DNA from: a virus
Strand: one strand, 5' to 3'
IMG/VR virus record: IMGVR_UViG_3300021963_004492
Location: 1 to 37,301 of that record
Length of the DNA: 37,301 nt
Below are positions 1 to 13,701 of this stretch, in pieces. The notes below the pieces were generated by a model. It saw nothing but the letters and a program-made list of their open reading frames with translations, was not told the origin of the DNA and searched no databases. Both the position numbers and the translations under genes were made by a program. Positions within the stretch are counted from its first letter, which is position 1. The number at the start of each line of letters is the position of its first letter.

Positions 1-129
1 TCGTGTTGCCAACGCTGGTTAGGTAGACCCATGATTTTACTCATGCCCTATTCAAAGGGAGAACCATCCTACTGATCGTCAGTCAGTTTCTCTCGTGCGG
101 ATCACACTAGCAGTGATTAGCTGCGGGTT
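1..129. other. Non-coding, hairpin-rich left edge
   Basis: No credible reading frame. Several short inverted repeats are visible: ATCAC/GTGAT near 101-117, CCCT/AGGG near 46-59 and CATGA/TCATG near 30-45. The stretch lies next to the Met-like tRNA and probably continues the transcribed tRNA/non-coding RNA region beyond the window. I do not recognise a known RNA. Confidence 0.4.
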
Positions 130-204
130 TGGTAGCGGGAGGTGGTAACGCTCCACCCTCGATATGGCTTATGAGACCATTCGGTTCAACTTGAACTTCC
201 CGCA
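130..204 (-). tRNA. tRNA-Met-like (anticodon CAU), atypical
   Basis: Minus-strand cloverleaf with encoded CCA. Anticodon loop CTCATAA gives CAU. Acceptor positions 2-7 pair (GCGGGA/TCCCGC), while positions 1 and 72 are U and U. A mismatch at 1-72 is a hallmark of bacterial initiator tRNAs. However, the anticodon stem lacks three clean G-C pairs, the D-loop is tiny (AAGTT, no GG) and the T-loop is AGCGTTA rather than TTCRANN. It may be a divergent initiator, a degenerate Met/Ile tRNA, or a tRNA-like structure. Confidence 0.6.
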
Positions 205-209
205 ATAAC

Positions 210-284
210 TGGCGACTCGTAGGGGAATCGAACCCCTATGTTCTGCTAGACAGGCAGACATAATAGCCACTATATGAACGAGCC
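210..284 (-). tRNA. tRNA-Asp (GUC)
   Basis: Canonical cloverleaf on the minus strand with encoded CCA. Acceptor GGCTCGT/ACGAGTC, discriminator G. Anticodon stem TCTGC/GCAGA around loop CTGTCTA gives GUC. T-arm GGGGTTCGATTCCCC. Five bases separate it from the Met-like tRNA, so both are probably cut from one transcript. Confidence 0.93.
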
Positions 285-489
285 ATGAATTTGGTGTAGG
301 CTACGTATTTCGTTCTCGCCCCTACTTGAGTTTACAACCCTGTCGTCACATTTGCATATACTCAGTCTGTGTGATTCAGCCAACTCAGAGTCTGCAAGGG
401 TAGTTTCCATCCTCACGCTTACGGTTTTCTGCCACCGAATCTCTATCGTATAATTAAACGCCACATTAACGCAAGTGGTACGGAAATTT
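285..489. other. Spacer between tRNA-Asp and tRNA-Tyr, no gene seen
   Basis: About 200 bases without a convincing protein gene. On the minus strand it ends in TAGCCTACACCA next to tRNA-Asp, which looks like a tRNA 3' end with CCA, but I could not build the rest of a cloverleaf. A GTAGG/CCTAC pair is visible near 296-325. It may be a decayed tRNA or part of the structured RNA region. Confidence 0.4.
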
Positions 490-582
490 TGGTGGAGGCA
501 GTTGGAGTCGAACCAACATTGTTTACCACGAGGGAACGGATTTACAGTCCGCTGCAGAACACGCCATATCTACAATGCCTCC
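490..582 (-). tRNA. tRNA-Tyr (GUA)
   Basis: Class II tRNA with encoded CCA and a long variable arm. Acceptor GGAGGCA/TGCCTCC, discriminator A. Anticodon loop CTGTAAA gives GUA. T-arm GTTGG/CCAAC around TTCGACT. It is the first tRNA downstream of the 1.5-kb non-coding region. Confidence 0.93.
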
Positions 583-1145
583 AAAATTTATACAACTGAT
601 AACTTGCACGTTCCACCACGTTATTGGAACCATTCACCCATCGGTTATGTGCACAGGGAGTCGGTACGTTACTAGGAATACTTGTCCAACGCTTCTAGGT
701 TTTGCTAGGGTATTGCGCCCCTCGTTGCTTTACATTGCATGGATCTTCGAAGAATCCTTATCAATGTGACTTTCTCTTGCTAACAACAAATTACCATGTG
801 TATAAACTTTTATTTTTGGAGGACTGAGAATACATCCTTACCGAATAACACTTCAGACATTATTACAATCCTTGCGAGACTGCTTTCTTCTGACTTCCAC
901 ACAGCCCTATTGCTAGGTATCCGTGTATGTTACCAACATCGCCGTTTAAAGACAGGCAGTAGTCTTGACGCTATATGCTACTCTACGCTTTATTTTCCGT
1001 TGACCTTGCGAGCCATTAAGTCTTGCGAACTACGAAACTTCTAGCACAAACTAATCTCACCTTGCGAGTTTGATTAGACTCAATTCACTTGCGTGTCGAG
1101 TGTTAGATGATTTTCACATATAACCGAGGCAGTCTTTGCATTTTT

Positions 1146-1215
1146 GTTAGATAGTGGTTATGAAGCCACAGCCTATTCCTTAAAAGGGAATTGCTCTACG
1201 ATGAGCTATATCGAA
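1146..1215 (-). ncRNA. tRNA(Lys)-like cloverleaf embedded in the structured RNA
   Basis: A 70-nt cloverleaf can be folded on the minus strand: acceptor TTCGATA/TATCTAA (one C-U mismatch), D-stem GCTC/GAGC with loop ATCGTA, anticodon stem ATTCC/GGAAT with loop CTTTTAA (anticodon UUU), and T-stem GTGG/CCAC with an 8-nt loop. CCA is not encoded and the D-loop lacks GG. The element sits inside the GAGGCAG/CTGCCTC helix (1126-1132 with 1230-1236), so it looks like a domain of a larger RNA rather than a free tRNA. A canonical tRNA-Lys (UUU) exists elsewhere in the array. Confidence 0.5.
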
Positions 1216-1685
1216 CCTACTGCGATGTGCTGCCTCAGTTGCTTCATATTCTTTTGAAATACAAAATACAACACACCACGTACCTTTTGTCTTGCGAACT
1301 ACTCAGTAGTCTTTTGCGACCAGTGTGACCCCGCCATTGCTGACAGCCCCACTAACCACTCAAACTGCATCCTAGCCCTTGGGTGCAACCCCTCGGACAC
1401 AGACACTACACTTTCTCATACCAACTAACTGATTGGTTTCGCAGCGAGGGACAGCACCACCTGTTTCCTCTCCAACAACTCAAGTTCCCCTTTCGGGCTT
1501 GTAAGTCATCGTTCTCTCCGCTACTATCAGCTTTACTGTTACCTCCACCAGTCTTATTAGTGAAGGGATCCTCACGGATCTGAGCATGCTTGTTTAGATG
1601 AACCATTGCTGGCGGTGGTATGTAGGCATTCCACCTTTGGGAGAGTCACCCCTCTTATTCTAATGACACTAAACTGCCATAATTA

Positions 1686-1879
1686 GTATTAGTTTTGTTG
1701 TTTTGTTATGAGTAGCCTTCACCGTACTACTGTTTGTTTTTATCGGACTAACTTATTTCCCTACCGTCGTAGGATTTTCGTTTCGTCTCAACCGATGTGT
1801 AGTCTAGTGCACCTAACCACGCAGAGCGGATTCACTGTCCAGCGATCACTGGAATTTTCCAAAACAACAAAACTAATAC
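1686..1879. repeat. Perfect 20-bp inverted repeat enclosing 154 bases
   Basis: Positions 1686-1705 are exactly complementary, in reverse, to 1860-1879. A match of this length is not expected by chance in 1.5 kb. The enclosed bases hold smaller hairpins such as CCTAC/GTAGG and TCCAG/CTGGA. It is probably a long helix of the structured RNA. Confidence 0.85.
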
Positions 1880-2096
1880 CACATTTAATTGTACTGGGAA
1901 GTTTGACAACAATCTGTTCTACAGTTAACCACGTCATCGTCTGACGAATGGTTGTCATCCTCATTACGTTTCAACTTTATCCAGCGTCCTCCTGATATTA
2001 TCTCAAGGTTTCGTGTAATCTAGCGAGCGATACTCCGTCAAGTATCCTAAACTCCTAGATCACCTACTGGGGTTGACAACCCAATGCAATTAAATC

Positions 2097-2171
2097 TGGT
2101 ACTCGGTAGGGGAATCGAACCCCTCTTCCTGCCGTGAAAGGGCAGTGTCCTAACCGATAGACGAACCGAGC
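2097..2171 (-). tRNA. tRNA-Glu (UUC)
   Basis: Canonical cloverleaf with encoded CCA. Acceptor GCTCGGT/ACCGAGT, discriminator A. Anticodon loop CTTTCAC gives UUC. T-arm GGGGTTCGATTCCCC. It lies about 55 bases downstream of the expected start from the promoter at 2234-2262. Confidence 0.94.
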
Positions 2172-2233
2172 AGAACCTCAGGCTTCCGACTTCACGTAAA
2201 GACTCAGAGAGGATTTCCGACTAACTTAGAGTT

Positions 2234-2262
2234 ATTATACCTCAACCCTAAATAAAAGTAAA
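2234..2262 (-). promoter_or_regulatory. Sigma70-like promoter for tRNA-Glu and the structured RNA
   Basis: On the minus strand: -35 TTTACT at 2257-2262, 17-bp spacer, -10 TATAAT at 2234-2239, with GAGG directly before the -10. Transcription would start near 2227. The same architecture recurs five more times in the window. Confidence 0.8.
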
Positions 2263-2275
2263 GCACTAATATAAA

Positions 2276-2298
2276 TAACCCTACAAGTTGTAAGGTTA
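2276..2298 (-). terminator. Hairpin of the AACC type upstream of the promoter
   Basis: Stem of about 9 bp with one mismatch and a 5-nt loop, just downstream of tRNA-Cys and just upstream of the promoter at 2234-2262. It lacks a clear U-tract, so termination is uncertain. It may act as a terminator, an RNA-processing boundary, or part of the recurring hairpin-promoter module. Confidence 0.45.
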
Positions 2299-2312
2299 AA
2301 ACTTTTGTTTTC

Positions 2313-2388
2313 TGGAGTGGGCGACAGGACTCGAACCTGCATTACAAGGATTTGCAATCCCTTCCCTAGCCATTCAGGACACGCCCAC
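2313..2388 (-). tRNA. tRNA-Cys (GCA)
   Basis: Acceptor GTGGGCG/CGCCCAC, discriminator U (typical of Cys), encoded CCA. Anticodon loop TTGCAAA gives GCA. It lies 14 bases from the start codon of the plus-strand gene at 2403, so its own promoter must overlap or lie beyond those oppositely oriented genes. Confidence 0.93.
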
Positions 2389-2402
2389 ATTATAAGGTCA
2401 TC

Positions 2403-2966
2403 ATGTTCATATTGGAACTTATTCACGTTAACAAACAAGAAGATCTATTCTTCGAAGATACTGCAGATGGTTCTCTACTGAAGGAACACTTCGCAGCATT
2501 CTACAAAACTTTTGACGAGTCACACTCACAAAAATTTTACAAACAAAATGTTATAACAACAACCAAACGAGACAAACTACAGGATGGTTCGTTCAGAAGG
2601 ATAACAACAAAATCATTCTTTAAAAGACAATCTGATGCAGAGTTATACTTTAAAGAATTATTTTTAAACTACCAGAGACATGAGTGGGATGAAACTGGTA
2701 AGCGAGAAAAACACACCGAAGAATTCAACCTCAAACGAATAGACTGGCAGACTTCCAATAACATCTTCATGGAAGCAAACATTCTAGACAATCAAGGTAA
2801 ATTTATTAAGTGTATAAATTCATGCACTCAACAAGTTTGCATCAGATTCGGAGAGTGTAACCCATCCGACAAATGCGCAACCATCTATCCAGAATCTCAA
2901 ATTTTTAACAAGTCAAAAGTTTCATTTCATCATGTTCCAATTTCTTCAATCAAGAGGAAAGTATAA
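2403..2966 (+). CDS. Unknown protein, paralogue A of a tandem pair (187 aa)
   Basis: I do not recognise this family. It is one of only two credible plus-strand genes and lies inside the tRNA array. It shares the start (M-[FY]-ILE then IH-x-NK-x-EDLFFED), the centre (EANILD then G-x-FIK then NSC) and the end (HH-x-P-x-SSIK) with the next gene, so the two are tandem duplicates. Four cysteines in the C-terminal third (NSC, VC, GEC, DKC) are roughly kept in the paralogue and could bind a metal. AAGG lies about 6 bases before the ATG. The stop overlaps the next start by one base (TAATG). Charged, with no membrane segment. Likely a recently inserted accessory cassette. Confidence 0.75.
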   Translation: MFILELIHVNKQEDLFFEDTADGSLLKEHFAAFYKTFDESHSQKFYKQNVITTTKRDKLQDGSFRRITTKSFFKRQSDAELYFKELFLNYQRHEWDETGKREKHTEEFNLKRIDWQTSNNIFMEANILDNQGKFIKCINSCTQQVCIRFGECNPSDKCATIYPESQIFNKSKVSFHHVPISSIKRKV

Positions 2967-3508
2967 TGTATATCTTAGAAATAATCCATATCAACAAAAC
3001 TGAAGATCTGTTTTTCGAAGACTTAAAGGTACTTCCTGACGATTTACAACAAGAACAAAATAACTTCTACGAAAGAGTAGAAGAAAAATGTTTACAACAC
3101 ATTTACAAAAAGAAGTTGACGTATTCTGTTGAGAGACGACAACTATCTAATGGAAATTATTCCATCAATCACAAAAGAAAATTCTTCAAATCAATACATG
3201 GAATAGAAGAATACTGGCGCACCTTCTTCTATGAATACTCAAGCATCGATGTTACAACATCAAAGATGACACGTTACAAAAAAGACTGGGCTAAAGAACA
3301 CGATATAAGAACTGAAGCCAACATCCTTGATGTTAACGGAAACTTTATTAAAACTGTCAACTCATGCGAGCAAGGTATATGCGGAAGGTTTGACGACCGC
3401 AACTGTTCACCTGACGCCCATTGCTGGGAAAAGCACGAAGTTAAAACTAACGTATCATATCATCACATACCATTATCTTCAATCAAGAAGAAAGTAATGG
3501 TGGGCTGA
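2966..3508 (+). CDS. Unknown protein, paralogue B of a tandem pair (180 aa)
   Basis: Paralogue of the preceding gene, translationally coupled to it through TAATG. The same N-terminal block (ILEIIHINK then EDLFFED), central EANILD/NSC block and C-terminal HHIPLSSIK are visible, with cysteines at NSC, IC, NC and HC positions. The terminal few codons (VMVG and TGA) lie inside the oppositely oriented tRNA at 3498-3572, so the gene apparently ends by reading into a tRNA 3' end. That suggests an insertion junction, or loss of the original stop. Function unknown. Confidence 0.75.
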   Translation: MYILEIIHINKTEDLFFEDLKVLPDDLQQEQNNFYERVEEKCLQHIYKKKLTYSVERRQLSNGNYSINHKRKFFKSIHGIEEYWRTFFYEYSSIDVTTSKMTRYKKDWAKEHDIRTEANILDVNGNFIKTVNSCEQGICGRFDDRNCSPDAHCWEKHEVKTNVSYHHIPLSSIKKKVMVG

Positions 3509-3572
3509 GAGAGAATTGAACTCTCACTCGACCGATTATGAGTCGGCTGCTTTACCATTAAGCTATCAGCCC
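3498..3572 (-). tRNA. tRNA with CAU anticodon (elongator Met or Ile2)
   Basis: Acceptor GGGCTGA/TCAGCCC, discriminator A, encoded CCA. Anticodon loop CTCATAA gives CAU. The anticodon arm (GCCGA/TCGGT) resembles tRNA-Ile2, whose C34 is changed to lysidine, so Met versus Ile cannot be settled by eye. The fully paired 1-72 argues against an initiator. Its 3' end overlaps the stop of the plus-strand gene ending at 3508. Confidence 0.9.
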
Positions 3573-3578
3573 AACAAC

Positions 3579-3653
3579 TGGTGCGGCATACAGGAATCGA
3601 ACCCATATTCGTGGTGTAGAAGACCACTGTATTATCCATTATACTAATGCCGC
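3579..3653 (-). tRNA. tRNA-Arg (UCU)
   Basis: Acceptor GCGGCAT/ATGCCGC, discriminator A, encoded CCA. Anticodon stem GTGGT/ACCAC with loop CTTCTAC gives UCU, which reads AGA/AGG. Confidence 0.93.
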
Positions 3654-3657
3654 AAAC

Positions 3658-3742
3658 TGGTACGAGTAGTCGGACTTGAACCGACACGCACGAAGGCGAG
3701 GGATTTTAAGTCCCTTGTGTCTACCTATTCCACCATACTCGC
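3658..3742 (-). tRNA. tRNA-Leu (UAA)
   Basis: Class II tRNA with a normal long variable arm (CGCCTTCGTGCG). Acceptor GCGAGTA/TACTCGT, discriminator A, encoded CCA. Anticodon loop CTTAAAA gives UAA. Confidence 0.94.
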
Positions 3743-3752
3743 AAAAAACCTT

Positions 3753-3829
3753 TGGTGCCGAAGGTGGGACTCGAACCCACAGAATCCTGATTTTGAGTCA
3801 GACACGTATACCAATTCCATCACTTCGGC
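3753..3829 (-). tRNA. tRNA-Leu (CAA) with a shortened variable region
   Basis: Acceptor GCCGAAG/CTTCGGC, discriminator A, encoded CCA. Anticodon loop CTCAAAA gives CAA. The acceptor and D-arm look leucine-like, but only about five bases (ATTCT) separate the anticodon stem from the T-stem, so the long variable arm expected of bacterial tRNA-Leu is missing. It may be minimised or altered in charging. Confidence 0.85.
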
Positions 3830-3830
3830 T

Positions 3831-3920
3831 TGGCAGAGAGTGTGGGAATCGAACCCACTGACCTGCTTTCACAAGTCTACTGATTAGCAATCAGCTGCAT
3901 TACCATCCTGCCCACTCTCT
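3831..3920 (-). tRNA. tRNA-Ser (GCU)
   Basis: Class II tRNA. Acceptor AGAGAGT/ACTCTCT, discriminator G (serine-typical), encoded CCA, long variable arm (GACTTGTGAAAGCAGGTC). Anticodon loop TTGCTAA gives GCU. One base separates it from tRNA-Leu (CAA). Confidence 0.94.
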
Positions 3921-3926
3921 ATAATT

Positions 3927-4018
3927 TGGCGGAAAGCAGAGGAGTCGAACCCCATCCCATTTCTGAGAACCCAGTTTTCAAGGCTGGTCGCCGTACCAAC
4001 ACAGCTGCATTACTTTCC
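3927..4018 (-). tRNA. tRNA-Ser (UGA)
   Basis: Class II tRNA. Acceptor GGAAAGT/GCTTTCC, discriminator G, encoded CCA. Anticodon loop CTTGAAA gives UGA. The last anticodon-stem pair is C-A, a small irregularity. Confidence 0.92.
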
Positions 4019-4024
4019 ATAATC

Positions 4025-4114
4025 TGGCAGAAGCAGTGAGATTCGAACTCACGGAGCCATTGCTGACTCGCTAGTTTTCTAGACTAGTTCCTTAAACCGC
4101 TCGGACATACTTCT
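4025..4114 (-). tRNA. tRNA-Ser (AGA)
   Basis: Class II tRNA. Acceptor AGAAGTA/TGCTTCT, discriminator G, encoded CCA, long variable arm. Anticodon stem CTAGT/ACTAG with loop CTAGAAA gives AGA. An A34 serine anticodon is unusual in bacteria, which normally read UCU/UCC with GGA. It would read UCU directly, or more widely if A34 were deaminated to inosine. Confidence 0.9.
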
Positions 4115-4121
4115 ATAACTT

Positions 4122-4196
4122 TGGCACCCAATGAGAGAATCAAACTCCCAACCCAGCGTTCGTAGCACTGTGTGATATTCATTTCACCAATCGGGT
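4122..4196 (-). tRNA. tRNA-Arg (ACG), atypical elbow
   Basis: Acceptor ACCCGAT/ATTGGGT, discriminator G, encoded CCA. Anticodon stem CAGTG/CGCTG with loop CTACGAA gives ACG. The D-loop (AATGAATA) lacks the GG pair and the T-loop is TTTGATT, so position 56 is U rather than C. The normal G19-C56 elbow contact therefore appears lost on both sides. Confidence 0.82.
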
Positions 4197-4197
4197 A

Positions 4198-4272
4198 TGG
4201 AGCAGGATATCGGGTTCGAACCGATGACATTTTCGTTGGCAACGAAACATTCTACCACTGAATTAATCCTGC
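4198..4272 (-). tRNA. tRNA-Gly (GCC)
   Basis: Acceptor GCAGGAT/ATCCTGC, discriminator U, encoded CCA. Anticodon stem TTTCG/CGAAA with loop TTGCCAA gives GCC. One base separates it from tRNA-Arg (ACG). Confidence 0.94.
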
Positions 4273-4279
4273 ATAAACT

Positions 4280-4353
4280 TGGCATCCCGCCAGGGACTCG
4301 AACCCCGACCAACAGTTTTGGAGACTGACATGCTGCCATTACACCAGCGAGAT
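4280..4353 (-). tRNA. tRNA-Trp (CCA)
   Basis: Acceptor ATCTCGC/GCGGGAT with one G-U pair, discriminator G, encoded CCA. Anticodon loop CTCCAAA gives CCA. Confidence 0.93.
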
Positions 4354-4359
4354 ACAACT

Positions 4360-4434
4360 TGGTCCTCTCGAAAGGAATCGAACCTTAGGTCTATCGCTTA
4401 TCAAGCGAGTGCTCTACCATTGAGCTACAAGAGG
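4360..4434 (-). tRNA. tRNA-Ile (GAU)
   Basis: Acceptor CCTCTTG/CGAGAGG, discriminator A, encoded CCA. Anticodon loop TTGATAA gives GAU. The outermost anticodon-stem pair is C-U. D-arm AGCTC/GAGC is canonical. Confidence 0.92.
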
Positions 4435-4442
4435 AAATACTT

Positions 4443-4518
4443 TGGTGCAGCCAGTGGAATCGAACCACTGCGGGAATCTAGAATGCGGAGCCGATGCCCC
4501 TACCCATCCAATACTGCA
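4443..4518 (-). tRNA. Degenerate or undetermined tRNA
   Basis: Ends in encoded CCA, with a good T-arm (AGTGG/CCACT around TTCGATT) and D-arm (GATG/CATC with a GG-containing loop). The acceptor is irregular (GCAGT pairs, the rest does not, and one 3' base seems missing). I cannot form an anticodon stem from 4468-4492, so no anticodon can be read. Either a decaying tRNA gene or a noncanonical tRNA. Confidence 0.55.
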
Positions 4519-4526
4519 TAAACTTT

Positions 4527-4602
4527 TGGTACCGAGAGACGGGATCGAACCGCCCACGCACAGATTTTCAGTCTGTCGCTCTACCAACTGAGCTATCTCG
4601 GC
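4527..4602 (-). tRNA. tRNA-Phe (GAA)
   Basis: Acceptor GCCGAGA/TCTCGGT, discriminator A, encoded CCA. Anticodon stem CAGA/TCTG with loop CTGAAAA gives GAA. D-arm and T-arm canonical. Confidence 0.94.
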
Positions 4603-4603
4603 A

Positions 4604-4678
4604 TGGGGTATCGTACGAGAATCGAACTCGTGATAACGGAATCACAACCCGTGGTTTTACCACTAAACTAACGACACC
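4604..4678 (-). tRNA. tRNA-His (GUG)
   Basis: Acceptor GTGTCGT/ACGATAC with an extra 5' G (G-1) facing discriminator C73, the hallmark of tRNA-His. Encoded CCA. Anticodon loop TTGTGAT gives GUG. Confidence 0.95.
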
Positions 4679-4737
4679 ATATAGAAACACACTATGCCAC
4701 GCTCTGAACCTGGACTCTTAGTAATGTGTTTTTATAT
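4679..4737. other. Long hairpin between tRNA-Lys and tRNA-His
   Basis: Positions 4679-4691 pair with 4725-4737 in a 13-bp stem with one G-U, closing a 33-base loop. One arm touches the CCA end of tRNA-Lys. It may be a processing signal or the relic of a tRNA acceptor stem; no cloverleaf could be built inside. Confidence 0.5.
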
Positions 4738-4810
4738 GGTAGGGGTACAGAGAATCGAACTCTGGTTAATAGGTTAAAAGCCTACTACTTTACCACTAAG
4801 TTATACCCCC
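4737..4810 (-). tRNA. tRNA-Lys (UUU)
   Basis: Acceptor GGGGGTA/TACCCCT with G-U at 1-72, discriminator A, encoded CCA. Anticodon stem TAGG/CCTA with loop CTTTTAA gives UUU. Confidence 0.94.
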
Positions 4811-4815
4811 ACATT

Positions 4816-4889
4816 TGGCACCCGAAATAAGAATCGAACTTATACTAACAGAGTCAAAGTCTGCTGTGCTACCACTACACCATTCGGGA
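4816..4889 (-). tRNA. tRNA-Gln (UUG)
   Basis: Acceptor TCCCGAA/TTCGGGT, with U-U at 1-72. A weak first pair is typical of GlnRS substrates. Discriminator G, encoded CCA. Anticodon stem CAGA/TCTG with loop CTTTGAC gives UUG. First gene of the array in transcription order. Confidence 0.93.
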
Positions 4890-4943
4890 ACATTTGGTAC
4901 GCAAATTTTTAAGGAACAATTTTGGGACGATGCCCTAAAACAA

Positions 4944-5262: not shown

Positions 5263-5568
5263 TTACACAGAGAAGGAAGAACCGCATCCACAAGTAGTTT
5301 CAGCGTTTGGGTTTTGCACTCTGAATGACGAACCCATCAGATCTTCAACATAGTCGACAGTCGCACCTTGCAAGTATTGCATGCTCATCGCATCAACAAT
5401 AACCTTGTCGAGAGTGAAGTCATCTTCGTCGGCTACATCATCAAACATGAATGCATATGTGAAGCCAGAACAACCACCACCCTGCACTGACATGCGCAAG
5501 AAGTTTTCTTGGTTCTCTGCCAACAAGTCGACAATTTTGTTTGTAGCGTTTTCTGTTACTGTAATCAT
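5263..5568 (-). CDS. erpA: A-type iron-sulfur carrier, ErpA-like (101 aa)
   Basis: A-type carrier that takes Fe-S clusters from a scaffold such as IscU and passes them to apoproteins in the cytoplasm. The three cluster cysteines of the family are present: C33 in GGGCSGF and C93/C95 in TCGCGSSF. Length matches the family. The start at 5568 is chosen because its ATG overlaps the TGA of the upstream iscA gene (ATGA); an upstream in-frame start would add nine poorly fitting residues. It is last in the iscU-iscA-erpA run and is followed by the tRNA promoters. ErpA rather than a second IscA is inferred from the GGGCSGF/CGCGSSF signature. Confidence 0.88.
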
Positions 5569-5891
5569 ACTCTGAAACTTTCTCCGCAACCACATCGGTC
5601 ACGTTCATTTGGGTTTTGAAAATCAAATCCTTCATTGAGTCCATTGCGAACCCAATCAACTGTCATGCCATTCAAGTAGGCATCTGCTTTAGCGTCTACA
5701 AGAACAGCGAATTCTGGTTGAGCATAGTTGGTATCACCAATTTGCCCAGTATATTCATCGACATATTCTAGTGTATATGCCAAACCACTGCATCCTGTAG
5801 TTTTTACACCTAACCGAATGCCAACTCCCTTGCCACGTTTCTCAAGCAGTTGCTTGATTTTCTTTTTGGCTGCGTCGGTTACGGTAATCAT
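5565..5891 (-). CDS. iscA: A-type iron-sulfur carrier IscA (108 aa)
   Basis: Cytoplasmic A-type carrier of the ISC pathway. The signature cysteines C34 (TTGCSGLAY) and C100/C102 (CGCGESF) and the conserved GLNEGF/FQNPN segment match IscA closely. The start lies inside the end of iscU (about 50-base overlap) and the stop overlaps the erpA-like start, so the three genes form one translationally coupled unit. Two different A-type carriers side by side in a phage is notable; in bacteria they have overlapping but distinct client sets. Confidence 0.92.
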
Positions 5892-6246
5892 TTACAGCTG
5901 CCTTAATTGCATCTTCTGCTAGAATTGAACAATGAATCTTTACTGGTGGGAGTGCGAGTTCTTCAGCGATTTGAGAGTTCTTAAGTTTATCAGCATCGTC
6001 AATGTGCATACCCTTAACCATCTCAGTGACCAGCGACGAGCTGGCGATTGCTGAACCGCATCCATATGTCTTGAAACGAGCATCTCTAATAATACCATTA
6101 TCATCTACCTTAATCTGTAATTTCATCACGTCACCGCATGCTGGCGCTCCAACCATACCTGTACCGACACCATCTTCGTCTTTGGCGAAGCTACCCACAT
6201 TGCGAGGGTTTTCGTAGTGATCGATAACTTTATTTGAGTATGCCAT
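5842..6246 (-). CDS. iscU: Iron-sulfur scaffold protein IscU (134 aa)
   Basis: Scaffold on which Fe-S clusters are built from sulfur delivered by the cysteine desulfurase IscS. All functional residues of E. coli IscU are present at the same positions: C37 and D39 (PACGDVM), C63 (YGCGSAIASS), the LPPVK chaperone-binding motif and H105/C106. From memory the N-terminal two thirds match bacterial IscU almost residue for residue, which suggests fairly recent acquisition. The C terminus runs about 17 codons into the iscA frame. No iscS, hscA/B or fdx is nearby, so the host would have to supply sulfur and chaperones. Confidence 0.95.
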   Translation of the reverse strand: MAYSNKVIDHYENPRNVGSFAKDEDGVGTGMVGAPACGDVMKLQIKVDDNGIIRDARFKTYGCGSAIASSSLVTEMVKGMHIDDADKLKNSQIAEELALPPVKIHCSILAEDAIKAAVNDYRNRRSQKENQATA

Positions 6247-6254
6247 ATGACTAT

Positions 6255-6806
6255 TTATTCAAGAATTAGATTGGATGATAGGCTAATTCTAGGAAGAGGT
6301 GACTTATTTGTTTCAACTGAATGCAGCAAAAACCCTGGAAAGATAACAAGAGAACCTTCCTTTGGTTTAATTCTTGTATGCTTAACGCCAACAATACTAC
6401 CCTCAACTTCCCATCCCCAGTTCACACCACCACGTGGATCAAACAGTAATAAATCTCCGCAATTATTTGGAGACTTTATGTAGTATGTGCATACTACAGT
6501 GGTATTACCGTGATTATGTGTAGCTAAAGATTCGCCAGTTTTATGATAGTTAACCCATCCTCTTTTCAGAGACAATTTGTGTTTAATGTAGGATGGTATT
6601 TCTTCTGAGACAACATCGTTGATAATCTTCAATGTGGTTTCTCGTAGAGTATCGATAGATTCTGTATTATAGTTCCAGATGTTAAACTCATTCCCAGGAG
6701 AAGAGTGGATGATGTTGATGTCCCTCAGAAGATCAGCATTAAACTTACCACTCAACCCTGTGTCAACTTCCCAAACAGGGGTTGACCACCACTCATGTTT
6801 TATCAT
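6255..6806 (-). CDS. 2-oxoglutarate/Fe(II) dioxygenase-like protein (183 aa)
   Basis: Resembles the short phage 2OG-Fe(II) oxygenases. Likely iron ligands are H97 or H99 (ATHNHGN) and H162 (FLLHSVE), with R173 (PRISLSSN) placed to bind 2-oxoglutarate. The core strands TVVCTYYIK, GDLLLFDP and GSLVIFPG fit a double-stranded beta-helix. The carboxylate ligand is not obvious. Substrate unknown; in T4-like phages such enzymes are suspected to hydroxylate nucleic acid bases or proteins. The start overlaps the stop of the TctC-like gene (ATGA), and iscU follows, so an iron enzyme sits next to iron-sulfur genes. Confidence 0.75.
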   Translation of the reverse strand: MIKHEWWSTPVWEVDTGLSGKFNADLLRDINIIHSSPGNEFNIWNYNTESIDTLRETTLKIINDVVSEEIPSYIKHKLSLKRGWVNYHKTGESLATHNHGNTTVVCTYYIKSPNNCGDLLLFDPRGGVNWGWEVEGSIVGVKHTRIKPKEGSLVIFPGFLLHSVETNKSPLPRISLSSNLILE

Positions 6807-7678
6807 TTTGATTTCTCGATTTCAGATCTATATTTTTCTTGCAGCGTTCTTACAAGTTTAGTTGAATTTGTATAGAATACTTCAGCAGATTCTTTGGGAA
6901 TCCTCATACCAGAAACTTTGTAAATCTCGTTTGCTCCAACTTTGTTCTGAGCATTGTTTAAAATTTGCTTGATAGCTTCACGTCTCGCCTTACTCATAGA
7001 AACATGAGCCATCGTGATGTTAAAGACATATGGTGCTTGGATTCCAAGTTCTTTCAGAGTCTTTAGGTTGGGTGCTTGCGGTAGTCTATCTGGACAACTA
7101 GCTGCGAATGCTTGTAAGTTTGAATTCTTAGTCTTCATAGACTCATAAGATTCATAACGATCAATCACCATAAAGATTCCATTGTTGCCAGCCATGTTAA
7201 CTAAAGCATCGTTGTTTGACTTGAACACAATGTACTTGGTTGTAAACTTATACTTCTCACCCAATGCTAGTGCAGTTAGATGAGCAGCATTACCAAACCC
7301 AACACCACCAACAGTCAACTCTTTGTTAGCGTTGATTGGTCCATTTGTGATGACAGCCCAGCATGCATCACCAAGAGCATGGATAGGAACATAATCAGAT
7401 TCTTTAATCTGCCCTGATGCTACGTTCTCGACAAATGCTGGTGCAATGATGCCAAGACTATTTTCGTCCATAGCCTTGAGAGCAATAATCTGATTACCAC
7501 CTGGACGAAACTCAAGGATAAACTTGTATATACTTTGTTCTTTGTTTGCCTCATCAATGATTCTAAACATAGCTGGAGTCGCTGAGTGCGATGGGCTATA
7601 CGGAGAATAAATTTTAATAGTCTCCGCTGCAAACAAATTCGTGCATACCATTGCCAGTAAAGCAATAATTTTCTTCAT
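6803..7678 (-). CDS. TctC/Bug-family periplasmic solute-binding protein (291 aa)
   Basis: An N-terminal signal peptide (residues 1-17, KKIIALLAM core, LFA-A cleavage region) is followed by a two-lobed binding-protein sequence: YSPYSPSHSATPAMFRIID, then RPGGNQIIALKA, then TVGGVGFGNAAHLTALAL, and a C-terminal LKELGIQAPYVF segment. These fit the tripartite tricarboxylate transporter receptor (TctC/Bug) family, which binds carboxylates in the periplasm. Length is slightly shorter than the usual 320. No TctA/TctB membrane subunits are present, so it would have to feed host transporters or serve another purpose. Coupled by ATGA to dCMP deaminase upstream and the oxygenase downstream. Confidence 0.75.
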   Translation of the reverse strand: MKKIIALLAMVCTNLFAAETIKIYSPYSPSHSATPAMFRIIDEANKEQSIYKFILEFRPGGNQIIALKAMDENSLGIIAPAFVENVASGQIKESDYVPIHALGDACWAVITNGPINANKELTVGGVGFGNAAHLTALALGEKYKFTTKYIVFKSNNDALVNMAGNNGIFMVIDRYESYESMKTKNSNLQAFAASCPDRLPQAPNLKTLKELGIQAPYVFNITMAHVSMSKARREAIKQILNNAQNKVGANEIYKVSGMRIPKESAEVFYTNSTKLVRTLQEKYRSEIEKSK

Positions 7679-8148
7679 ACTTTATTCACCTCTATATTAC
7701 ATTTTTCTAAAAAGTCAAGCCCATTAGTATCACGGTAAGAATTACGGTAATACACGGTATTTATACCAGCACCGTAAATCAGTTTGGCACAATCCACACA
7801 AGGAGCATGAGTAATAAACATAGTACTACCAAGACCAGATTCGTTCGATCTTGCCAGCTTAGAGATCGCATTAGCTTCAGCATGGATAACCTCTTTCTTA
7901 GTTACAAGTTTATACTTCATCCATTGGTTTGCATCTTTTGGTAGCAGCTGCTCAGACCAATCACCATCTTCACAATAGATCTTTTCCTCGCAGTTGTTAT
8001 CCCAACCAGCAGGTGTTCCGTTGTATCCAATAGAAGTGATACGTTCGTCTTTAACGACTACAGCACCAACATGTAAACGACGTGAACTAGACAGCTGAGC
8101 AAACCTCTCTGCTGTGTCCATAAATGCATTAATCCATTTTTCTTTCAT
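7675..8148 (-). CDS. cd: dCMP deaminase (157 aa)
   Basis: Converts dCMP to dUMP, the substrate for the phage ThyX encoded at 24.6 kb. The zinc site is complete: H89-A-E91 (catalytic Glu) and C117-x-x-C120 in APCVDC. SSRRLHVGAVVVKD and GYNGTPAG near the N terminus are typical of the T4-like family. The ATG overlaps the TGA of the aldolase gene, and its own stop overlaps the tctC start. Confidence 0.93.
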   Translation of the reverse strand: MKEKWINAFMDTAERFAQLSSSRRLHVGAVVVKDERITSIGYNGTPAGWDNNCEEKIYCEDGDWSEQLLPKDANQWMKYKLVTKKEVIHAEANAISKLARSNESGLGSTMFITHAPCVDCAKLIYGAGINTVYYRNSYRDTNGLDFLEKCNIEVNKV

Positions 8149-8861
8149 AATTTAAACTCTGGGTATTTTTGTTCAACTAACCTATACATAGCATTCCAAG
8201 CAGCAATGTAAGGTTTCTCTTTGTTATCTAGACCAATCATAATCTTTCTGCTTGAATCTGCCATAACATCTTCTCTTATCATAATGGCACGATCTTTATT
8301 GATTAACACTTGGGTTTCACAGGCAACCTGAAGTGCACGCATAGACGCCATAGATTCTTCTACGCAAGAACCAACAGTAAGGATACCATGATTTCTCATA
8401 ATCAAATATCTTTTATCAGCAAGGTTTTGCTTCAACAGACGTTTCTCTTTTTCATCAACTACCAGTCCATAGTAATCGTGATACGCAAGACTTCTCAGAC
8501 AAGTATATGCACGTTGAGTGCATGGCCATAGCCCATCTTTATCTGCAGCAACTGCCATACCTTCTTTAGTGTGAAGATGGATAATGCATCCAGCATCTTC
8601 TCGGTAATCATGAATTGCACTATGTATAACCAAACCAGCTGGGTTAACCTTACCTCTACCAGAAATTATTTTTCCACTCAGGTCTATCTTCAACAGGTTG
8701 CTTGCTGTGATTTCATCAAACCTAAGCCCATAAGAATTGATTAGGATGTGGTCTGTTCCAGGGATTCTCGCAGAAGCATGGGTGAAAATTAAGTCATCCC
8801 ATCCATAGTGATAAATTATGCGAAAGACTGCAGCAAGTTTAAGCCTCAATGATTGTTCCAC
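8145..8861 (-). CDS. Class II aldolase/adducin-family protein (238 aa)
   Basis: Zinc-binding class II aldolase fold. Likely zinc ligands are H95 and H97 (CIIHLHT) and H158 (RNHGILTVG), with the usual THASARIPG phosphate-loop region near residue 27 and NPAGLVIH before the zinc loop. Relatives split sugar phosphates or decarboxylate ketoacids; many annotated members have no known substrate. The start is GTG, supported by AAAGG about 8-10 bases upstream; it overlaps the previous gene by 23 bases. Coupled by ATGA to dCMP deaminase. Confidence 0.83.
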   Translation of the reverse strand: MEQSLRLKLAAVFRIIYHYGWDDLIFTHASARIPGTDHILINSYGLRFDEITASNLLKIDLSGKIISGRGKVNPAGLVIHSAIHDYREDAGCIIHLHTKEGMAVAADKDGLWPCTQRAYTCLRSLAYHDYYGLVVDEKEKRLLKQNLADKRYLIMRNHGILTVGSCVEESMASMRALQVACETQVLINKDRAIMIREDVMADSSRKIMIGLDNKEKPYIAAWNAMYRLVEQKYPEFKL

Positions 8862-12088: not shown

Positions 12089-12907
12089 TCAACGAGTTAC
12101 GTAATCCCTTACAGTTTGTAGGGTTATTTTGTACTCATTTTCCCACATGGAAAAGTGTGTGGAGTTCGGGATTACCACTTCCTCAATATTTGGGAAGTAC
12201 TGCTTGAACAGGGTATAGCCACCTGTCGTTATTTCATAGTCGTACTGACCAACGATGCTCAGAATTGGTGGAACCTTGTTTGCAATGAAACCATGATTGC
12301 CACGCTTAGGGTAGAAGTTGCCAACATCATGAACGACTTTTGCTGGCACCTTCCATTCTTCTTTACCAATGACTGCTAGAATCTTTTCTCTCCAACCATC
12401 AACTCTGTTCGGCTTAGGAATCAGCTTGTCGCTGATGTTTCCAATTCTTTCTTTAATCAATCGTTCGATTCCAGTGTTCATTTCTTCTTGATGACGAACA
12501 AAGTATTTGATGTCTTGTCTGATGACTGGACTGTGAATGATTACCTTGTTAAAAAATTTCTGAGAAGCAATCAATGCAGGTGCAGTTGTCGTTGAGAATC
12601 CGAATATGGTTTTGGTTTCATAATCTTTGTTTATCTCAGCAGTCGCTTCTTCAATTTGTTTAGCGTATGCAATTCTATCATATGAGTAGAATGCTTTACT
12701 GTTACCATAACCGACTGGATCGAATAAAACTACATCGATGCCTTGCGAGCAAAACCATTCTGCATGTGTGAAACCCTCATCTGTCTTCCAGTCCCAGAAA
12801 ACTCTGGGTGACAAACTTTGTCCTGGTAGAATAAACAGTAGATGTTTATTTTCAGATGAGGTATAGGTCTTTATGAAAGTTTCTTTTAGATAGCGTTCTT
12901 CAACCAT
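12089..12907 (-). CDS. Alpha/beta-hydrolase (272 aa)
   Basis: The nucleophile elbow is G-F-S105-T-T. The likely acid is D223 (VGQYDYE), or D226-equivalent, and the base is H251 (STHFSMWE). LLFILPGQSLSPRVFW near residue 23 forms the oxyanion region and VVLFDPVGYGNS the next strand. It is the last gene of a three-gene cassette (hydrolase, aminotransferase, hydrolase), overlapping the aminotransferase by 22 bases. Substrate unknown; esterase, thioesterase and C-C hydrolase are all possible. Confidence 0.8.
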   Translation of the reverse strand: MVEERYLKETFIKTYTSSENKHLLFILPGQSLSPRVFWDWKTDEGFTHAEWFCSQGIDVVLFDPVGYGNSKAFYSYDRIAYAKQIEEATAEINKDYETKTIFGFSTTTAPALIASQKFFNKVIIHSPVIRQDIKYFVRHQEEMNTGIERLIKERIGNISDKLIPKPNRVDGWREKILAVIGKEEWKVPAKVVHDVGNFYPKRGNHGFIANKVPPILSIVGQYDYEITTGGYTLFKQYFPNIEEVVIPNSTHFSMWENEYKITLQTVRDYVTR

Positions 12908-13701
12908 GTTAGAATCTCATTCTCTTCAAAGTATCTATCTTCTAATCTAGTTACAGGAATGACATTACCAGCTGTTGAAGTCAGAAACATAGCATCGATG
13001 TATTGTAGTTCAGTATGTGGGATAATCGTGTATGTGAATTTGATATTGTTGGAATCACAAACCTTCTTCACCTGATCCATCACTGTGCCCTGTAAACGAT
13101 TGTATGCTGGTGCAATAATTTCACCATCTTTAATCACAGCGACGTTAAATCCTGGACCTTCTGACAAACAACCATTTCGATTCAAAAGAACTGCAGTATC
13201 AAATCCACGTTCAATGGCTTGCCACTGCGCCAGCGACAAGTCTTGCCATGAAAAGTTTTTCATCTTCTGGTCGAACGAGTCATTTCTAAACACACCCTTA
13301 GCAACACATACAGTAGCACTGTTGGTAGAATTGAAACCGAAGTATGGCTTAGCATACGCCATAAACCTACCAGAGCATTTGTCAAGCGCACGAGGGTTAC
13401 CAGTTGTTGGAATACCACGTGTCGAGCACAACCAGAGTAAAAGATCTTTAGTCGGCGATCGTTTAACAAGACTAACACATAACGCTTCAAGTTCATCGAT
13501 AGGTGGGCAGTTTAGTCGCCACCCATCACAACTCGATTGGAATCGTGTTAGGTGCGCTTCAAAGTTTTGGATAATCCCATCTTTAACTGAGATAACATCA
13601 TATGTTGCATCAGAATGAATAAAGCCAAGATCAAGAATAGAAACATTCAAATCTTTAACTGTGCAGTGAACACCATCTGAGTAAGCAGGATAGTCAAGCA
13701 T
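12886..13701 (-). CDS. Class IV aminotransferase (BCAT/D-amino-acid transaminase type, 271 aa)
   Basis: PLP enzyme of fold type IV. The Schiff-base lysine is probably K148 (MKNFSWQDLSLAQ) and the conserved glutamate E181 (LSEGPGFNV). The start of the fold (DLGFIHSDATYDVISVKDG) and the end motif FLTSTAGNVIPVT match branched-chain or D-amino-acid transaminases more than PabC lyases. It could transfer an amino group to a small keto acid. Overlaps both neighbours (8 bases with the hydrolase before it, 22 with the one after), implying joint translation and a shared pathway. Confidence 0.85.
   Translation of the reverse strand: MLDYPAYSDGVHCTVKDLNVSILDLGFIHSDATYDVISVKDGIIQNFEAHLTRFQSSCDGWRLNCPPIDELEALCVSLVKRSPTKDLLLWLCSTRGIPTTGNPRALDKCSGRFMAYAKPYFGFNSTNSATVCVAKGVFRNDSFDQKMKNFSWQDLSLAQWQAIERGFDTAVLLNRNGCLSEGPGFNVAVIKDGEIIAPAYNRLQGTVMDQVKKVCDSNNIKFTYTIIPHTELQYIDAMFLTSTAGNVIPVTRLEDRYFEENEILTWLKNAI

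Follow-up and report, generated by a model that had tools for sequence, protein, structure and literature searches.

A phage tRNA array with a GOLLD RNA and three candidate new families of structured RNA, two of them with palindromic loops

The homo-oligomeric ornate RNAs GOLLD, OLE and ROOL feature symmetric kissing loops, namely L21a, L9.3 and L18, respectively (PMC12286853). The covariation logic that we apply below was used by Kretsch et al. for L21a of GOLLD and L9.3 of OLE, and the structures confirm it (PMC12286853). The GOLLD RNA solved by cryo-EM, env-38, has 833 nt; the same work puts the linker inside the GOLLD cage and advances the idea that phage tRNAs sit in this linker (PMC12286853). 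A mycobacterial GOLLD lies in a large tRNA cluster, there on a bacterial chromosome, and its inner pseudo-tRNA is not detectably expressed alone; the available sections of that account make no mention of the RNAs that we term A1, A2 and B (PMC6582537).

The locus reported here shares several features with known GOLLD RNAs (RF02032): a core with a full-length model match, two domains, a tRNA array and a tRNA-like domain in the linker. It differs in that this copy is flanked by three structured RNAs outside GOLLD, and in that its linker tRNA is degenerate. Known traits of GOLLD that would be predicted for the present copy are a 14-mer cage and expression that increases as the phage lyses its host.

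The locus and its GOLLD core

The window, that is, the whole stretch of DNA analysed, is a 37.3-kb contig from an uncultivated virus; its minus strand bears a large tRNA array at 1-4900. Phage genes for RNR, ThyX and primase lie on the same contig, which thus offers the phage and tRNA context of GOLLD RNAs. Within the array, 583-2096 (minus strand) resolves into four separable predicted folded RNAs in a row: A1, A2, GOLLD and B. As a preliminary description of this stretch had stated, it has tRNAs on both sides; these lie on the same strand as the four RNAs and are tRNA-Glu(UUC) at 2097-2171, which ends in CCA directly before A1, and tRNA-Tyr(GUA) at 490-582, which starts directly after B. The promoter that it saw pointing into the stretch is TTTACT-17-TATAAT at 2262-2234 (minus; TTTACT from 2262, TATAAT to 2234), and belongs to a terminator-plus-promoter cassette upstream of the unit. 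This cassette, a terminator-like inverted repeat (TAACCCTACA...GTAGGGTTAT) followed by a sigma-70-type promoter (TTTACT or TTGACA, then TATAAT), occurs four times in the window (2297-2176, 5189-5085, 12125-12029 and 35393-35319, all minus). A candidate RNA, element 'E', turned out to be this cassette and was rejected.

A protein-coding reading of 583-2096 was likewise rejected because no frame is conserved: the longest ORF has 82 aa, and relatives do not keep any one frame consistently open, in line with the earlier view that there is no credible protein gene. Predicted folding favours the minus strand, with z=-4.7 versus -2.1 on the plus strand for 1280-2096, and z=-2.4 versus +0.1 for 583-820.

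Several other elements were noted around this unit. RNA C, a further conserved inter-tRNA element outside 583-2096 (285-489, minus), sits between tRNA-Tyr and tRNA-Asp and has 18 matches in other arrays at a strict threshold, 11 of which are distinct and were aligned. tRNA-Met(CAU) (about 134-208) and tRNA-Ser(UGA) (3921-4024), both minus, are probable genes missed by ARAGORN. As element 'D' (209-1) begins with this tRNA-Met, it drifted into tRNAs on iteration and was dropped as an RNA family. Two paralogous ORFs of 187 and 180 aa (2403-2966 and 2966-3508, plus) lie mid-array on the strand opposite to the tRNAs and have no match in Pfam or PHROG. Phage metabolic genes at 5263-8861 and 12886-13701 (minus) encode IscU-like NifU_N and IscA-like Fe-S assembly proteins, a TctC-type solute receptor, a class II aldolase and a class IV aminotransferase.

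By homology we identify 1683-821 (minus) as a genuine GOLLD RNA, a new member of the known family. Its 3' domain, 821-1279, matches the full Rfam model (RF02032, positions 1-416) with 224.2 bits and E=2e-62, against a curated cut-off of 150 bits. As the Rfam model takes in the conserved 3' domain only, the 5' domain at 1280-1683 lies outside it; this segment answers to the roughly 400-nt, less conserved 5' domain typical of GOLLD, with homology to other GOLLDs and nine covarying pairs at 1653-1482. GOLLDs above the cut-off were found in thirty IMG/VR contigs, phage DSS3_MAL1 and Xanthomonas phage XacN1, and the 5' regions of most of these match window positions 1679-1280. Because of this 5' homology, and because conservation in the GOLLD comparison starts near 1690-1680, we take GOLLD proper to span about 1683-821. 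The tree-aware covariation test returned 18 significant pairs in GOLLD, all 18 Watson-Crick and spread over both domains. XacN1 (AP018399.1) carries two equal-scoring GOLLD copies (38570-38983 and 357365-357778), perhaps in terminal repeats.

The preliminary description had proposed a GOLLD/ROOL-like RNA or a new class. The GOLLD part stands; the Rfam ROOL model finds no match in the window even at E<10, and novelty applies to the flanks (A1, A2 and B) rather than to the core. The GNRA-capped minus-strand hairpins that it listed correspond to CGCAAG loops within the GOLLD match. The suggestion that the RNA may exceed the known classes in size falls away, as GOLLD itself, at about 863 nt, is close to the 833 nt of env-38 (PMC12286853).

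The tRNA-like domain noticed earlier is also real: it lies in the GOLLD linker at 1146-1215 (minus) and matches RF00005 with 49 bits, although ARAGORN misses it. It has a Lys-like anticodon loop (CUUUUAA), altered D- and T-loops and no CCA. Across 24 compared GOLLDs such a domain lies 59-65 nt after the Rfam start, with anticodons for Asn, Lys, Arg, Ile, Ser and Pro. None of these 24 has an encoded CCA, as against 195 of the 203 other tRNAs of the same loci, and a perfect acceptor stem is seen in three of 24 versus 181 of 203. Thus, lacking the encoded CCA and intact acceptor stem of a functional tRNA, the embedded domain appears to be a tRNA mimic that stays in the linker rather than a tRNA to be excised. 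The placing of phage tRNAs in the linker is an idea of the cryo-EM work (PMC12286853); the systematic absence of CCA is a measurement of the present analysis.

RNAs A1, A2 and B

Upstream of GOLLD lie A1 and A2, which abut; B lies downstream. A1 (1876-2096, minus) is closed by a terminal helix of 2080-2095 with 1883-1898. A2 (1682-1880, minus) has a 20-bp terminal helix, 1860-1879 with 1686-1705, which is the perfect 20-bp inverted repeat picked out in the preliminary description. B (about 583-812, minus; model core 592-797) has an outer stem of 583-606 with 787-810. None of the three matches any of 4227 models of the one Rfam release used, with the window and eleven other loci scanned. The covariance models give the window copies E-values, to be read as rough, of 3e-53 (A1), 5e-35 (A2) and 5e-45 (B), and those of A1 and B also recover members left out of model building.

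All three recur elsewhere. Window positions 2096-1881 match the stretch directly after tRNA-Leu in loci L006 and L031; 1880-1680 match inter-tRNA stretches away from GOLLD in L004, L009, L013 and L016; and 820-583 match L030, there too between GOLLD and tRNA-Tyr, as well as two loci in which the match is away from GOLLD, L019 and L016. Scanning viral contigs for patterns, together with profile searches, brought the loci to at least 82 (A1), 19 (A2) and 85 (B), all relatives being metagenome contigs and the counts being of contigs, some near-identical. Among the matches listed for A1, A2 and B, the strand is that of the neighbouring tRNA in 314 of 314 comparisons. A tRNA lies within 15 nt upstream or 25 nt downstream of 62 of 70 full-length A1 copies among the matches listed, 15 of 18 full-length A2 copies and 63 of 81 full-length B copies. 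B adjoins tRNAs of many different identities; typically it follows immediately on the CCA of the preceding tRNA, with 2 nt left between its own end and the next tRNA. Modules are ordered differently from array to array, with tRNA genes between modules in other phages; among the fetched loci, this window alone combines A1, A2, GOLLD, B and C.

A blastn search with a single member of each of the three families had no match in 50,697 records of named phages; the only named phages matched, DSS3_MAL1 and XacN1, were matched via GOLLD. The sole bacterial-genome match to the B pattern (Acinetobacter, L162) was discarded as a chance one, as neither the B profile nor its covariance model confirms it. 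The open-access literature searched yielded no paper that deals with these RNAs. We therefore regard A1, A2 and B as new families, on present sequence comparisons, within a broad category already known, that of structured RNAs in phage tRNA arrays.

That the three are structured RNAs is indicated by strong compensatory covariation. In A1, A2 and B, RNAalifold predicts 48, 41 and 32 pairs; 30, 28 and 22 of these are changed on both sides, and 94.0%, 95.1% and 92.5% of the cells, respectively, are paired under the named structures. Double changes number 110, 119 and 292 versus 35, 36 and 88 in shuffles; none of 500 shuffles reached the observed covariation in any of the three, and sliding the partners by 1-3 columns makes all pairing measures collapse. 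The tree-aware test, a home-made analogue of R-scape for which the GOLLD result doubles as a positive control, supports twelve Watson-Crick pairs in A1, eight in B and a single one in A2, the alignment of which holds 16 sequences. In A1, six of the 18 significant column pairs are not Watson-Crick and were not counted as support: five fall in columns 103-162, with alternative sequence types, and one in the terminal helix. Covarying helices, which the preliminary description set against codon-biased conservation in homologues, are present in A1, A2, B and GOLLD, with no conserved coding frame.

Many B members have, at columns 84-98 of alignment A3, a hairpin with a T-arm-like loop, GGGTTCRANNCCC, in place of which the window copy has GGGGCGCAATACCC; it is often followed by a GGAA-capped hairpin (about columns 100-122 of the same alignment).

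Palindromic loops of A2 and B

Viral RNAs joined by loop-loop contacts include the HIV-1 dimer initiation site, with a palindromic loop, and the phi29 pRNA. Both have been named as viral RNA homomers (PMC12286853); there is no known kinship to A2 and B, which are stand-alone modules in phage tRNA arrays. The apical loop of A2 in the window, GTGCAC at 1807-1812 (minus), is a palindrome, and so are two loops of B: the apical loop TGTGCACA at 648-655 and a second hairpin loop, TCTTCGAAGA, at 744-753 (both minus). The A2 loop and the apical B loop are proposed as homotypic kissing loops. In A2, a palindrome six bases long or longer is present in all 16 apical loops, with 14 different palindromes among them (besides GTGCAC, for instance TTCGAA, CTAGCTAG, TGTGTGCACACA, CCTGCAGG and ACTCGAGT); shuffled loops gave a mean of 3.3 and loops with swapped 3' halves a mean of 5.6, with a maximum of 10 in 2000 trials. 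Among the distinct apical loops of B, 28 of 29 are palindromic, with 16 different palindromes and a half-swap maximum of 21. Of six control hairpins, five do not rise above their shuffles; the remaining one (B, columns 37-72) is itself the second palindromic loop, the centres of which switch. Only some A2 members have an additional palindrome, at columns 158-173, which is absent from the window copy. A1 and C have no palindromic loop.

The palindromic columns of B alone show 47 double changes versus 15 when shuffled, and alignment positions that enclose no more than two nucleotides covary (E=6e-4). Bases so close cannot pair within one chain, yet they covary, which argues for pairing between molecules. 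The loop centre of A2 shifts by 1-2 columns between two clades, and a fixed-column palindrome scan understates A2. Compensatory palindromes for which pairing within the chain is impossible are thus most evident in B, and in A2 appear through the symmetry of the loop. These patterns are most simply read as self-pairing of A2 and of B, copy with copy, via palindromic kissing loops. As in GOLLD and OLE, the palindromes switch while symmetry is kept (PMC12286853). The differences from the ornate homo-oligomers are that A2 and B have about 200 nt, are unrelated by covariance model, use 14 and 16 palindromes and form oligomers by prediction only.

Alternative readings and the proposed working of the array

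The stretch could in principle be a single 1.5-kb RNA, as first described, in the form of one long GOLLD variant with A1 and A2 as an enlarged 5' domain and B as an added 3' domain. Here the four RNAs do abut, with no tRNA or predicted terminator between them; GOLLD and B are also adjacent in L030, L097, L115, L118, L140 and L226, and the order A1-GOLLD-B recurs in L070 and L226. However, A1, A2 and B are each closed by a helix of their own, and the majority of their copies are found away from GOLLD, beyond intervening tRNAs. We rejected the single RNA since its parts recur separately in arrays of other uncultivated phages, and a long GOLLD variant is quite unlikely. The idea that the stretch might hold two RNAs had the right direction, the number being four, with three not in Rfam. 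That A1, A2 and B are mere structured spacers, or processing signals aiding excision of the adjoining tRNAs, would suit modules that are flush with tRNA ends and always on the tRNA strand, and the terminal helix of A2, which in several arrays covers the last 4 nt of the upstream tRNA. It is nevertheless unlikely: many tRNAs of the same arrays are few nt apart without such an element, and a spacer needs neither long invariant internal motifs nor switching palindromes.

The palindromes themselves admit other readings. Six bases of palindrome are a common shape of DNA sites, for protein binding or recombination, and some could simply lengthen the hairpin within one RNA, their outer bases closing a tetraloop. 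Against both stand a sequence that is free while symmetry is kept, a location, in two unrelated families, at the tip of an RNA stem that covaries, and the covariation of innermost bases unable to pair in one chain; we hold such readings to be distinctly improbable. Very unlikely is pairing between different RNAs of an array, for example A2 with B, instead of with self. In this window A2 and B both carry GTGCAC, but their palindromes differ in the five other arrays where both are readable (L016, L085, L091, L102 and L116), most loci have only one of the two families, and a partner in such pairing need not be palindromic.

Taken as a whole, a single unit of four modules with excision, self-assembly by kissing loops and a GOLLD cage is, in our judgement, the probable explanation. 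A single minus-strand transcript would run from the promoter through tRNA-Glu, A1, A2, GOLLD, B and tRNA-Tyr and beyond. Because the modules sit flush against CCA-ending tRNAs, we infer that processing of tRNA ends, by an RNase Z-type activity and RNase P, would cut them from the array transcript. As the RNAs of the window have no tRNAs between them, tRNA processing alone would free one 1.5-kb piece from between tRNA-Glu and tRNA-Tyr; this would be released whole at first, and would then have to be cut further or act as a chain. In view of the covariation, A2 and B would form homotypic assemblies via their palindromic loops, one in the A2 of the window and two in its B, while GOLLD would assemble into the homo-oligomeric cage known for it, with the linker and its tRNA-like domain enclosed. 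As to role, gene neighbourhood and a GOLLD ribosome pull-down cited in PMC12286853 prompt a weakly supported guess: self-assembling scaffolds made with the phage tRNAs in lytic growth and acting on the host translation machinery.

In general terms, and with slightly less assurance than for the unit itself, we think it likely that phage tRNA arrays encode modular structured RNAs cut out between tRNAs, several previously undescribed, and that at least two of these, A2 and B, self-assemble through lineage-specific palindromes, a fast-changing private code of self-recognition, beside a GOLLD cage with a captive tRNA mimic. Natural homo-oligomers made of RNA only have been shown recently, for three large RNAs. 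A2 and B, at about 200 nt roughly four times smaller than GOLLD and seen so far in 19 and 85 viral loci, would, if they self-assemble, be much smaller relatives of these, in principle only. Their palindromes make a prediction: exchanging the palindrome would exchange the partner. The constant link to tRNAs and the CCA-less tRNA mimic make the role of GOLLD-type RNAs in infection more approachable, and A2 and B, being short and easy to make, may offer a handle on their function.
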